This document shows, piece after piece, positions 13,063-18,464 of a DNA stretch of 33,759 nucleotides. A program made the position numbers and the translations under genes. The notes beneath the pieces were generated by a model, which saw only the letters and a list, made by a program, of their open reading frames with translations, was not told the origin of the DNA and searched no databases. How positions within the stretch are numbered: the first letter of the stretch is position 1; each line of letters begins with the position of its first letter. The stretch comes from Candidatus Hydrogenedentota bacterium (lineage in GTDB: Bacteria > Hydrogenedentota > Hydrogenedentia > Hydrogenedentales > CAITNO01), in the NCBI GenBank assembly GCA_012730045.1, contig JAAYBR010000087.1:1-33759 (forward strand). The letters run 5' to 3'.

Positions 13063-14082
13063 TCAGAGCCCCCTGATGCCCGAATAGGACGACAGGACGC
13101 GGTATTCCTTGAGCCGGGAGAAGTCGCACAGGGTGCTCATGGCGGCGCTGGTGACCTGGATGCCCTCCTCCACCACGGCGGCCACGGGGTTGAGTCCGCC
13201 GCTGAGGATGACCCCCACGCGCTCCGCGCCGACGGGGATGTCGAGGAGAGGCTGGTTCGGGCTGCCGACGGCCACCACCCCGCCCAGGCCAACCTCCTCC
13301 ATGGCGCGGAAGAGGGCGCGCACGTCGGCCAGGGCGACGGCGGGCACCTCGCGGAAACTCGCGCCGATGAGCCCCGACCCCTCGCGCGACGCGCGCCACA
13401 CGGAGGTCATGTGGCCGCGGATGAAGATCTCCAGCGGGTCGAGGGAGGACCCCTCGTAGGTGATGACCTGGGTGAAGCGGCGCGGCTTGCCGTCCGTGAT
13501 CTCCAGCAGGCCGCCGAAGCGGGAGGCCATGGCGATGCCCGCGTGGAGCAGCACGCCGTTGACGCTCACGCTGCACACCGTGCCGATGGCGGCGCGGTTC
13601 GGGGGGACCGTGAACCCGCCGATGCGCTCGCCCGGCAGGGCGACCACCACCAGGCGTCCCATGCCCAGGCGCGCCTTGAACACGTCGGCCATGATGCTGA
13701 TCGTGTTCCGCAGGTCGCGCAGCTGCACGGTGGAGATGTTTAGAATGATGCGCCCCCCCCGCGCGGACAGGTCAAAGTCCATCTGGTAGGACAGGGCGTC
13801 AATCTTCCCGGCGATGAAGCCCACCTTGTCCGCCACCAGCGCCCCCTCCAGCTCCTCGATGCCCCGGGCGGTCAGCCGCCGTCCGCCCCGGCCGAGGTTC
13901 TCCGTCCACCCCAGCTCGTCGGCCATGGCCAGATAATTGCGCACCGCCCGCTCGCTGAGCTGGATGCCGCTCAGGTCGAGGGACTTCGCGATGCGCTCGC
14001 TGCCCATGCCGTCGGGCGCCTCGTGCAGCACCCGCAGGATGGCGACCATCCGCCGCTTCGTTTTGATGTCCATGGATTCCAT
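13063..14082 (-). CDS. nrpR: NrpR-type transcriptional regulator (HTH plus one NrpR/DUF128 domain)
   Basis: In methanogenic archaea NrpR represses nitrogen-assimilation genes and is released by 2-oxoglutarate. This 339-residue bacterial homologue has an N-terminal winged helix (about 5-75: TKRRMVAILRVLHEA, SERAVRNYLAMADELGW) and a single effector/dimer domain (about 80-335) with the repeated ILNIS, GRLVVVALPGERIG, IGTVCSVSVNGVLLHAGI and GVILSGGLNPVAAVVEEGI blocks. This HTH-plus-one-domain layout resembles NrpRI of Methanosarcina, unlike the two-domain form. The ATG at 14082 has GGAGGAGG 8 bases upstream; the frame stays open for 98 more codons, but those lie in the regulatory region. It is divergent from gdhA, whose enzyme uses 2-oxoglutarate. 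Family call is good; the regulatory role here is inferred. Confidence 0.85.
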   Translation of the reverse strand: MESMDIKTKRRMVAILRVLHEAPDGMGSERIAKSLDLSGIQLSERAVRNYLAMADELGWTENLGRGGRRLTARGIEELEGALVADKVGFIAGKIDALSYQMDFDLSARGGRIILNISTVQLRDLRNTISIMADVFKARLGMGRLVVVALPGERIGGFTVPPNRAAIGTVCSVSVNGVLLHAGIAMASRFGGLLEITDGKPRRFTQVITYEGSSLDPLEIFIRGHMTSVWRASREGSGLIGASFREVPAVALADVRALFRAMEEVGLGGVVAVGSPNQPLLDIPVGAERVGVILSGGLNPVAAVVEEGIQVTSAAMSTLCDFSRLKEYRVLSSYSGIRGL

Positions 14083-14260: not shown

Positions 14261-15737
<1,477 letters not shown>

Positions 15738-15746
15738 TCTTTTTCC

Positions 15747-15785
15747 CGGCCCGGCGGAGTACACTTTCCGCCGGGCCGTTTTTTT
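15747..15785 (+). terminator. gdhA terminator
   Basis: A perfect 12-bp stem, CGGCCCGGCGGA (15747-15758) with TCCGCCGGGCCG (15767-15778), an 8-nt loop and seven T residues form a textbook intrinsic terminator 9 bases after the stop codon. Confidence 0.93.
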
Positions 15786-15836
15786 AACCAGACAACGCGC
15801 CGGGACTGGCGCCCGCGCGCGGGGAGTGGCGGCGTC

Positions 15837-18464
15837 ATGAGCTTCACATCCGGCATCAGTTCCGGGCTGCCCGAGCTGGACCGCACCATCCGGGGGGTGC
15901 TGGCGGGGGACAACATTGTCTGGCGGGTGGACCGGATCGAAGAATACGCGGCCTTCGTGCTGCCCTTCGCGGAACACGCCCTCTCGACGGGGCGCCCCAC
16001 GGTGTACTTCCGCTTTGCGAACCACGCCCCGGTGCTGGAGGACCGGCCGGACAACCCGCTCTTTCTCCGGCTCACCCTGGACCCCGCGCAGGGCTTCGAG
16101 GGCTTCCTCGACGCGGTGCACGACACCATCGAGGCCACCGAAAAGGGGGCCTACTATGTGTTCGACTCCCTGTCGGACCTTTCGGCGGCGTGGCACGGCG
16201 ACGCGATGCTCTGCAACTTCTTCCTCATGACCTGCCCCTACCTCTACGACCGGGGCGACCTGGCCAGTTTCGCGCTCCTGCGGGACCGCCACTCCAACGA
16301 GGCGGTGCTGCCGATCCGCAACACCTGCCAGGTGATGCTGGACGCGTACAAGAAGGGCGGCACCATCTTCGTGCGTCCCCTGAAGACGCAGCAGCGCTTC
16401 TCCCCCACCATCCACATGCTGCACCGGTGGGAGAACGGCGCGCTCACGCCCATCGCCGAGAGCCACGTGATCACCGAGGTGCTCAAGCCGGTGCCGCCCT
16501 CGGCGGTCGGCTGCTCGGTGCGGCCGCTGGACGCGTGGAACCGCGCCTTCATGCAGGCGCAGGATCTGCTCACCGGGCCGCCCGAGCTGCTGCGAAGCGA
16601 GCTGGCCAACCACCTGTTTGAGACCCTGCTGCGCATGCTTATCTCGCACGAGGAGCGGGTGCTGGGGCTGGCGCGCCGCCACCTGACCCTGGCCGACCTG
16701 CTGGAGATCGGGCGGCGCACGGTGGGCACGGGACTCATCGGCGGCAAGTCCGCGGGCATGCTGCTGGCCCACGCCATCCTCCGGGGCGCGGGCGGGGAGT
16801 GGGCCGGCCGGCTGGAGATGCACGACAGCTTCTACATTGGCTCCGACTGCTTCTACACCTTCCTCGTGCGCAACGGGTGCTGGTGGATGCGCCGCCGCCA
16901 GAAGGCGGGCGAGACCCTTTTCGAGGAGGCCGAGCAGGCGCGCCGCCGCATCCTCACGGGCAAGTTCCCGCCGGAGTTCGAGGGGGAGCTCGAGCGCATC
17001 ATGGAGTACTTCTCCAGCGCGCCCATCATCGTGCGGTCCAGCTCGCTGCTGGAGGACGCCTTCGGCAACTCCTTCGCGGGGAAGTACGACAGCGTCTTCT
17101 GCGCGAACCAGGGCTCCTTCCACCATCGGATGGAGGACCTGAAGACGGCGATCCGCACGGTGTACGCCAGCGCCATGAGCGCGTCGGCCCTCGCCTACCG
17201 CAAGGCCCACGGCCTGCTCGAGCGCGAGGAGCAGATGGGGCTCCTGATCCAGCGCGTCTCCGGCACCCAGCACGGCGAGCTCTTCTTCCCCGACCTGGCA
17301 GGCGTCGGGTTCTCTTTCAACCCCTACGTCTGGAACCCGGACATTGACCCCGGGGCCGGCGTGCTGCGCATGGTCTTCGGCCTGGGCACCCGGGCGGTGG
17401 ACCGGTCCGACTCCGACTACACGCGCCTGGTGGCGCTCAACGCCCCCGACCTCTCGCCCGACTCGCGGGAGAGCGGCCAGGGAAAATGCAGCCAGCGCAT
17501 CGTGGACGTGCTGGACCTCGACGCGAACCAGCTCGTCTCGCTGGACTTCGGCGCGGTGGCCGAGCGCGGCGGCGGCGACCGGGACCGCGCCGTGGCCCGC
17601 TTCTCCCACCGCGACCCGGCGCTGGTGCGCGCGGTGCGCGCGCAGGGCTCCGGGACGGTCCCCCTCACCATCACCTTCGACCGGATGATCCGCGACACGT
17701 CCTTCATCGGGGACATGCGGGAGGCCCTGCGGCTGCTGCAGGAGGCCTACGACTACCCGGTGGACGTGGAGTTCACGGCGAACTTCCCCGAGGAGGGCGT
17801 GTACAAGCTCAACATCGTGCAGTGCCGCCCGCTCCAGGTCAAGGGCAACGCGGTGTGCGAGCCCCTGCCCGCCCGCATCCCCGACGAGGACCTCCTCCTG
17901 CGCGCGCGCGGCCCCGTCATCGGCCCGAGCCGCTCGGAGACCCTGGACACCTTCATTTATGTGGTGCCGGAGGTCTACTCCAGCCTGCCCAACGCCGACC
18001 GCTACCGCGTGGCGCGCATCATCGGCCGGGTGACCCAGGCGCTCAGGGGGGCGCGGGTCATGCTCCTCGGCCCGGGCCGCTGGGGCACCACCACCCCGTC
18101 CCTGGGCGTGCCCGTGTCCTTCGCCGAAATCCACCCCGTCGCCGTGCTCTGCGAGATCGTGGCCATGCGCGACGGCCTCGTGCCGGACGTCTCCCTGGGC
18201 ACCCATTTCTTCAGCGAGCTGGTGGAGCAGGACATGCTTTATATTGCCGTGTACCCCGAGCGGGCGGAAACGGTTCTCCGGGACGACTTCTTCCTCCGGG
18301 CACCCAATCTTCTGCTGGAGCTGGCGCCGGAGGCGGCCCTGTTTGCAGACACCCTGAAAGTCGTCCGGGTGGCCCCGGAAACAGGAAAAGTGCGCCTGCA
18401 CGCCAATGTGCTGGAGCAGGAAGTGGTCTGTTTTATGGAACCCGCCGCGGTTCCCGAAGGATAG
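15837..18464 (+). CDS. Degenerate KaiC/RecA-like domain fused to a PEP-synthase-type ATP-grasp domain
   Basis: This 875-residue protein has three regions. Residues 1-215 resemble a KaiC/RecA-type domain (SGISSGLPELDRTIRG start, YYVFDSLSDLS near 106-115), but the P-loop position reads WRVDRIEEY, so nucleotide binding there is probably lost. Residues 295-670 are the nucleotide-binding domain of PEP synthase and pyruvate phosphate dikinase: IGGKSAGM (301-308), IIVRSSSLLEDAFGNSFAGK (397-416) and LNIVQCRPLQ (658-667). The phosphohistidine and PEP-binding domains of those enzymes are absent. The last 200 residues form a separate domain with LLGPGRWGTTTPSLGVPVSF (743-762). It is therefore unlikely to be a complete PEP synthase; an ATP-dependent phosphotransferase on an unknown substrate is possible. 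ATG at 15837 with GGGGAG upstream. Transcribed alone. Confidence 0.8.
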   Translation: MSFTSGISSGLPELDRTIRGVLAGDNIVWRVDRIEEYAAFVLPFAEHALSTGRPTVYFRFANHAPVLEDRPDNPLFLRLTLDPAQGFEGFLDAVHDTIEATEKGAYYVFDSLSDLSAAWHGDAMLCNFFLMTCPYLYDRGDLASFALLRDRHSNEAVLPIRNTCQVMLDAYKKGGTIFVRPLKTQQRFSPTIHMLHRWENGALTPIAESHVITEVLKPVPPSAVGCSVRPLDAWNRAFMQAQDLLTGPPELLRSELANHLFETLLRMLISHEERVLGLARRHLTLADLLEIGRRTVGTGLIGGKSAGMLLAHAILRGAGGEWAGRLEMHDSFYIGSDCFYTFLVRNGCWWMRRRQKAGETLFEEAEQARRRILTGKFPPEFEGELERIMEYFSSAPIIVRSSSLLEDAFGNSFAGKYDSVFCANQGSFHHRMEDLKTAIRTVYASAMSASALAYRKAHGLLEREEQMGLLIQRVSGTQHGELFFPDLAGVGFSFNPYVWNPDIDPGAGVLRMVFGLGTRAVDRSDSDYTRLVALNAPDLSPDSRESGQGKCSQRIVDVLDLDANQLVSLDFGAVAERGGGDRDRAVARFSHRDPALVRAVRAQGSGTVPLTITFDRMIRDTSFIGDMREALRLLQEAYDYPVDVEFTANFPEEGVYKLNIVQCRPLQVKGNAVCEPLPARIPDEDLLLRARGPVIGPSRSETLDTFIYVVPEVYSSLPNADRYRVARIIGRVTQALRGARVMLLGPGRWGTTTPSLGVPVSFAEIHPVAVLCEIVAMRDGLVPDVSLGTHFFSELVEQDMLYIAVYPERAETVLRDDFFLRAPNLLLELAPEAALFADTLKVVRVAPETGKVRLHANVLEQEVVCFMEPAAVPEG

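Follow-up and report, generated by a model that had tools for sequence, protein, structure and literature searches.

An ATP-grasp protein family with a P-loop-less KaiC-like domain, often encoded beside glutamate dehydrogenase in several bacterial phyla

The stretch of DNA analysed here (33,759 nucleotides of contig JAAYBR010000087.1 from a Candidatus Hydrogenedentota bacterium, hereafter the window) contains at positions 15837–18464 of the + strand an ATG-initiated open reading frame for an 875-residue protein that combines a KaiC-like domain without its P-loop, a PEP-synthase-type ATP-grasp domain and a C-terminal domain bearing the motifs GPGRWG and GTHFF. Coupling of this gene to glutamate dehydrogenase (GDH) and ammonia assimilation is well supported by genome sequences from at least six phyla. 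Our leading interpretation, held with about as much doubt as confidence, is that the protein may be dedicated to regulating (or activating) GDH at the expense of ATP and, more widely, to regulating the assimilation of ammonia into glutamate.

GDH is one of the chief points at which ammonia enters the cell. A conserved ATP-using family located beside GDH in at least six phyla, including gut Bacteroidota, is a concrete and testable candidate for its post-translational control. The analysis also corrects the common annotation as PEP synthase or PEP/pyruvate-binding protein, which would wrongly imply gluconeogenesis. Nothing describing this architecture or its GDH link was found in the literature, curated families and structures that were searched; the component parts are of kinds already known, with a real chance of a new activity.

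Genomic linkage to glutamate dehydrogenase and nitrogen genes

In the window, gdhA (14397–15737, + strand) lies directly upstream of the ATP-grasp gene on the same strand and encodes a family-I NADP-type GDH of 446 residues (NCBIfam PRK09414 equivalog, 767 bits). Divergent from it is a gene for an NrpR-like nitrogen regulator (13063–14082, − strand; Pfam NRD1_2 and HTH_12), the true start of which is probably near 14082, judging from the sequence there and from the HTH_12 domain, which begins only at residue 111 of the longest reading frame. NrpR is best known as a nitrogen regulator of archaea. A sigma-70-like promoter preceding gdhA (TTGATA-18-TATACT; 14261–14290, + strand) is identified by consensus match only, and between gdhA and the ATP-grasp gene there is a strong intrinsic terminator with a 13-bp stem and T7 (15747–15778, + strand). 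Given this terminator, the two genes in the window do not form one simple operon, and co-transcription is not required. The gene order is the same in a relative with 95% identity (L002). Near-matches to the NrpR operator occur in the NrpR-gdhA intergenic region, for example at 14301–14320, after the sigma-70-like promoter; the operator search gave a weak result, with 20 one-mismatch sites against 13.7 expected. Long antisense reading frames overlie the region (for example 14346–18401, − strand) and seem to be a side effect of high G+C.

The arrangement recurs among relatives that were picked regardless of their neighbours. At 42 of the 71 loci for which at least 1.3 kb of complete flank was available on each side, a GDH gene was present within flanks of about 1.5 kb, a count uncorrected for kinship that comprises 11/11 loci in Hydrogenedentota, 13/24 in Verrucomicrobiota, 15/26 in Desulfobacterota and 3/10 in Bacillota_A. 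With roughly one or two GDH genes per several-megabase genome, we estimate chance adjacency at well under 1%. The GDH gene may be upstream or downstream of the ATP-grasp gene and, in either place, on the same or the opposite strand. In Parabacteroides and Phocaeicola, a homolog with a response-regulator receiver N-terminus is located upstream of one gdhA and divergent from it, and lies 3.5–4 kb from a second gdhA, on the downstream side of the latter. Verrucomicrobiota copies of receiver-type length are beside GDH by coordinates (G110, G122 and G125), and four variants of the core with other N-termini (L167, L168, L172 and L173) adjoin an archaeal-type GDH that is about 30% identical to gdhA.

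GDH was absent within 1.5 kb at about 40% of the loci. Loci of this kind often carry instead gltB and gltD (L139, L161 and L162), type III glutamine synthetase (GS; L139 and L158) or Amt and P-II (L139, L155 and L158), and NrpR too adjoins some of them. A nitrogen gene was found at 34 of 58 extended loci, a rate biased by the choice of these loci, partly for lacking and partly for having GDH nearby. By comparison, none of 16 control regions of 11–16 kb from the same genomes contained GDH, gltB, gltD, GS III, Amt, P-II or NrpR. At the Lachnospiraceae loci examined (L018, L021 and L160) nitrogen genes were absent nearby; the neighbours there include methylenetetrahydrofolate reductase, MatE and Cu/Zn superoxide dismutase. 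The first-pass annotation, made from the window sequence alone, had left the substrate of the protein as unknown, which was incomplete in that gene linkage narrows the field to GDH, glutamate synthase and ammonia assimilation.

Co-occurrence within Hydrogenedentota follows the same association. The ATP-grasp protein was present in 31 of the 32 genomes whose GdhA is at least 73% identical, compared with 4 of the 28 others (Fisher p ~1e-11, kinship uncorrected), and it was missing from all eight genomes in which the best GDH is 50–72% identical. Many genomes, including many Verrucomicrobiota, possess family-I GDH and lack the ATP-grasp protein, which is thus not a universal requirement for GDH. 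No GDH residue distinguishes partnered from unpartnered enzymes, and the partnered GDHs are not one clade.

The same linkage might be read in metabolic terms, with the protein being an enzyme that uses up glutamate or acts alongside it, an ATP-grasp kinase or ligase that makes a product derived from glutamate or 2-oxoglutarate and is linked to GDH through a shared metabolite. Its ATP-grasp domain is intact, the gene accompanies GDHs only about 30% alike, and the linkage spans GDH, GOGAT and GS, which have metabolites and not a protein surface in common. However, beyond nitrogen assimilation and its regulators the biosynthetic neighbours are not consistent, and the N-termini, which resemble sensors, are swapped between proteins (a receiver in some, pseudo-KaiC in others, or none), as is typical of regulators. 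We therefore consider such an enzyme unlikely and favor a regulator of GDH.

The ATP-grasp and C-terminal core

A Pfam search of the 875-residue protein returned PPDK_N (PF01326, E=1.5e-45; residues 300–673, 16734–17855, + strand) as its sole domain, with neither a PEP-utilizer domain (PF00391) nor a TIM barrel. NCBIfam PEP synthase models match the ATP-grasp part only, at no more than 65 bits against cut-offs of several hundred. Searched by sequence against the PDB, single proteins and domains gave chance or very weak matches only, and the profile of the whole family led to PEP synthases. In an alignment of 105 proteins from several phyla (about 25–95% identity), residues K304, R400, S401, S402, E406, D407, E645, Q662 and R664 are invariant, and where the PEP synthase reference sequences align, most of these residues are found there too. 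PEP synthase, PPDK and rifampin phosphotransferase thus share with the window protein the ATP-grasp fold and the catalytic Lys, Arg, Glu, Gln and Arg, and from the sequences this engine apparently works. Unlike PEP synthase and PPDK, the window protein has no His domain and no PEP/pyruvate TIM barrel, and carries a new C-terminal domain instead. The first-pass annotation had described just such a protein, retaining the ATP-grasp domain of PEP synthase and missing the His and PEP domains, and its conclusion that this is not a gluconeogenic enzyme is supported.

The added C-terminal domain that it had also proposed is borne out. It comprises residues 690–870 (17904–18446, + strand), includes GPGRWGT at 745–751 and the motif SLGTHFF, and has G747, R748, G757, G788 and H790 invariant in the 105 proteins. 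When this domain was modelled alone with AlphaFold2 (pLDDT 81), Foldseek found nothing in the PDB at E<0.001. The invariant H790 sits in a local pattern that by eye resembles the His motif of PEP synthase, with GTHFF for TSHAA, which raises the case of a compact one-chain dikinase whose C-terminal domain would be a diverged swivelling phospho-His domain. Comparison with that domain by hhalign gave a probability of 0.4% and the model has no swivelling-domain match in the PDB; the hidden phospho-His domain was rejected as a candidate, and a one-chain dikinase is in our judgement the most improbable of the explanations considered.

HpeI and the phenylphosphate synthase subunits are split PEPS-type kinases. 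The best Foldseek matches of the ATP-grasp part in the PDB are HpeI (9goj), which likewise has no His domain of its own, and rifampin phosphotransferase, and these matches favor a split phosphotransferase resembling PEP synthase (compare phenylphosphate synthase and HpeHI), to which another gene would supply the His domain in trans. The window protein differs from HpeI and phenylphosphate synthase in its fused sensor and C-terminal domains, its link to GDH and its lack of a nearby gene for a His partner. In a regular-expression motif scan of the fetched neighbourhoods, which number dozens, the sole His-domain reading frame was a PtsI-like gene at a single Bacillota locus (L164), at a distance of 3.4 kb. 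In the genome of the window, PEP-utilizer His domains occur only in two proteins encoded on other contigs, PPDK and one resembling PtsI. A split PEP synthase was accordingly rejected, and the broader notion of a His domain acting in trans appears very unlikely.

The N-terminal domain and its exchange

Residues 1–215 (15837–16481, + strand) have a RecA/KaiC-like fold according to an AlphaFold2 model, Foldseek and weak sequence matches. The model of the full protein, built on a 15-row alignment, has a mean pLDDT of 78 and a pTM of 0.75. Against the PDB, FlaH, KaiC and RecA all match the N-terminal part with E values of about 1e-9 to 1e-8, among them FlaH (4yds, E=8.8e-10, TM by target 0.68); by sequence there were weak matches to UPF0273 PH0284 (2dr3, E=0.25) and KaiC (4dug, E=0.84). 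The fold and strand order are those of the KaiC, FlaH and RecA-like ATPases, and residues 109–110 form a Walker-B-like FD, but Walker A is missing from the whole family. In the window protein, GDNIVWRVDRIEEYA replaces the P-loop of the KaiC/FlaH-like RecA fold, and an alignment of 15 relatives places VWRVDRIEEYA (residues 28–38, 15918–15950, + strand; WRVDRIEEY being 29–37) at the Walker A position, where the family keeps GDNxVW (GDNxVWxVD). In the model, strand 26–31 leads directly into helix 34–50 with two residues between them, so that a P-loop has no room; strands and helices alternate from there to residue 205.

The pattern GxxxxGK[ST] did not occur in the first 120 residues of any of 101 distinct family proteins. 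The loss of the P-loop, which had been noted for the window protein along with its resemblance to KaiC/RecA, is thus a trait of the whole family and not of the window's genome alone. Full-length homologs with 35–95% identity exist in many phyla, and these, together with the missing P-loop in 101 of 101 proteins, show that the feature is not a product of chance. The architecture was found in Hydrogenedentota, Verrucomicrobiota, Planctomycetota, Desulfobacterota, Pseudomonadota, Lentisphaerae and Bacillota. Homologs were absent from the viral contigs searched, and PADLOC gave no match that would link the protein to anti-phage defense.

The same P-loop-less KaiC-like domain is present in HTH_3-cupin proteins of Desulfobacterota (L172:2571–3878 and L174:4558–5862), which are putative transcription regulators with a dead KaiC fold. 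It also occurs as a stand-alone protein of 245 residues in a Lentisphaerae genome (L175:6122–6859).

The first-pass annotation had suggested a phosphotransferase or an ATP sensor, and the two do not fare equally. As a pure sensor of ATP or energy, the protein would bind ATP without transfer and be reshaped by it, with allosteric control of GDH or of transcription as the outcome. A dead KaiC domain suggests that NTPase folds are being used non-catalytically, its reuse in HTH-cupin proteins points the same way, and no phosphate-carrier domain was recognised. Set against this, all catalytic and metal-ligand positions of the ATP-grasp domain are invariant in 105 proteins, which is more than binding usually needs, and R748 and H790 are invariant as well. 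The invariance of the catalytic residues makes a pure ATP sensor the less likely part of the suggestion, and we regard it as decidedly improbable; a protein that spends ATP in regulating GDH is preferred.

Other members of the family retain the core, consisting of the ATP-grasp and C-terminal domains, and differ in front of it. The N-terminus is a response-regulator receiver in Bacteroidota, Desulfobacterota and Bacillota and is of another kind in proteins of 914–1068 residues, the longer of which end in a nucleotidyltransferase domain; by eye, the sequence of the 914-residue protein suggests a GAF-like beginning. In Bacillota proteins of about 575–645 residues the core is nearly bare. The KaiC-like part is not the constant part of the family but one that is swapped for a receiver or other N-termini, and a constant core with changing front ends may be taken as a regulator-like pattern. 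In a Desulfobacterota protein of 1432 residues (L195:2006–6304), the ATP-grasp domain shares its chain with DUF5752 and two matches to receiver domains.

Proposed regulation of GDH and relation to known systems

In the mechanism that we propose, the exchangeable N-terminal domain (P-loop-less KaiC fold, receiver or other) would sense a signal, be it one of nitrogen, energy or phosphorylation. The constant core, comprising the ATP-grasp domain and the domain with R748 and H790, would then spend ATP to phosphorylate, otherwise modify or remodel a partner, most likely GDH, whose activity would thereby be switched. We infer the regulatory output, GDH as the direct target, the direction of its control and phosphotransfer chemistry (possibly via H790).

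Proteins of the GlnE/GlnD and GarA types are regulators of nitrogen enzymes. The role proposed here would likewise be control of ammonia-assimilating enzymes, and the 1061–1068-residue variant even has a nucleotidyltransferase domain, but folds and chemistry differ, the window protein being based on ATP-grasp. Variants of this length with a C-terminal NTP_transf_2 domain (L167:5895–9101 and L168:5932–9117) adjoin the archaeal-type GDH.

A Bacteroidota example, annotated as a PEP/pyruvate binding domain-containing protein (WP_041525632.1, Parabacteroides distasonis), has the same ATP-grasp domain with GPGRWGS and GTHFF and adjoins gdhA. Homologs of this type have a receiver-type N-terminal region, not a pseudo-KaiC domain, and are 24–27% identical to the window protein. 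A paper of 1996, cited in PMC4539542, states in its title that a trans-acting gene or genes beside gdhA of Bacteroides thetaiotaomicron affect GDH activity. Papers on B. thetaiotaomicron give BT_1971 as a catalase. The ATP-grasp family, too, is a gdhA neighbour in relatives of this species, and our hypothesis is that it is possibly the factor left unnamed in 1996, as far as that title describes it. A bolder version, which we find rather doubtful, is that the family constitutes an unrecognised, widespread class of ATP-grasp enzymes that covalently switch GDH through a new-fold C-terminal His/Arg domain, under interchangeable sensors that include a non-ATPase KaiC fold; it would explain the Bacteroides factor. 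In the 1996 work of Baggio and Morrison, the DNA needed in trans in E. coli reportedly spanned about 3 kb; the Bacteroidota homologs of the ATP-grasp gene are 2.95 kb long.
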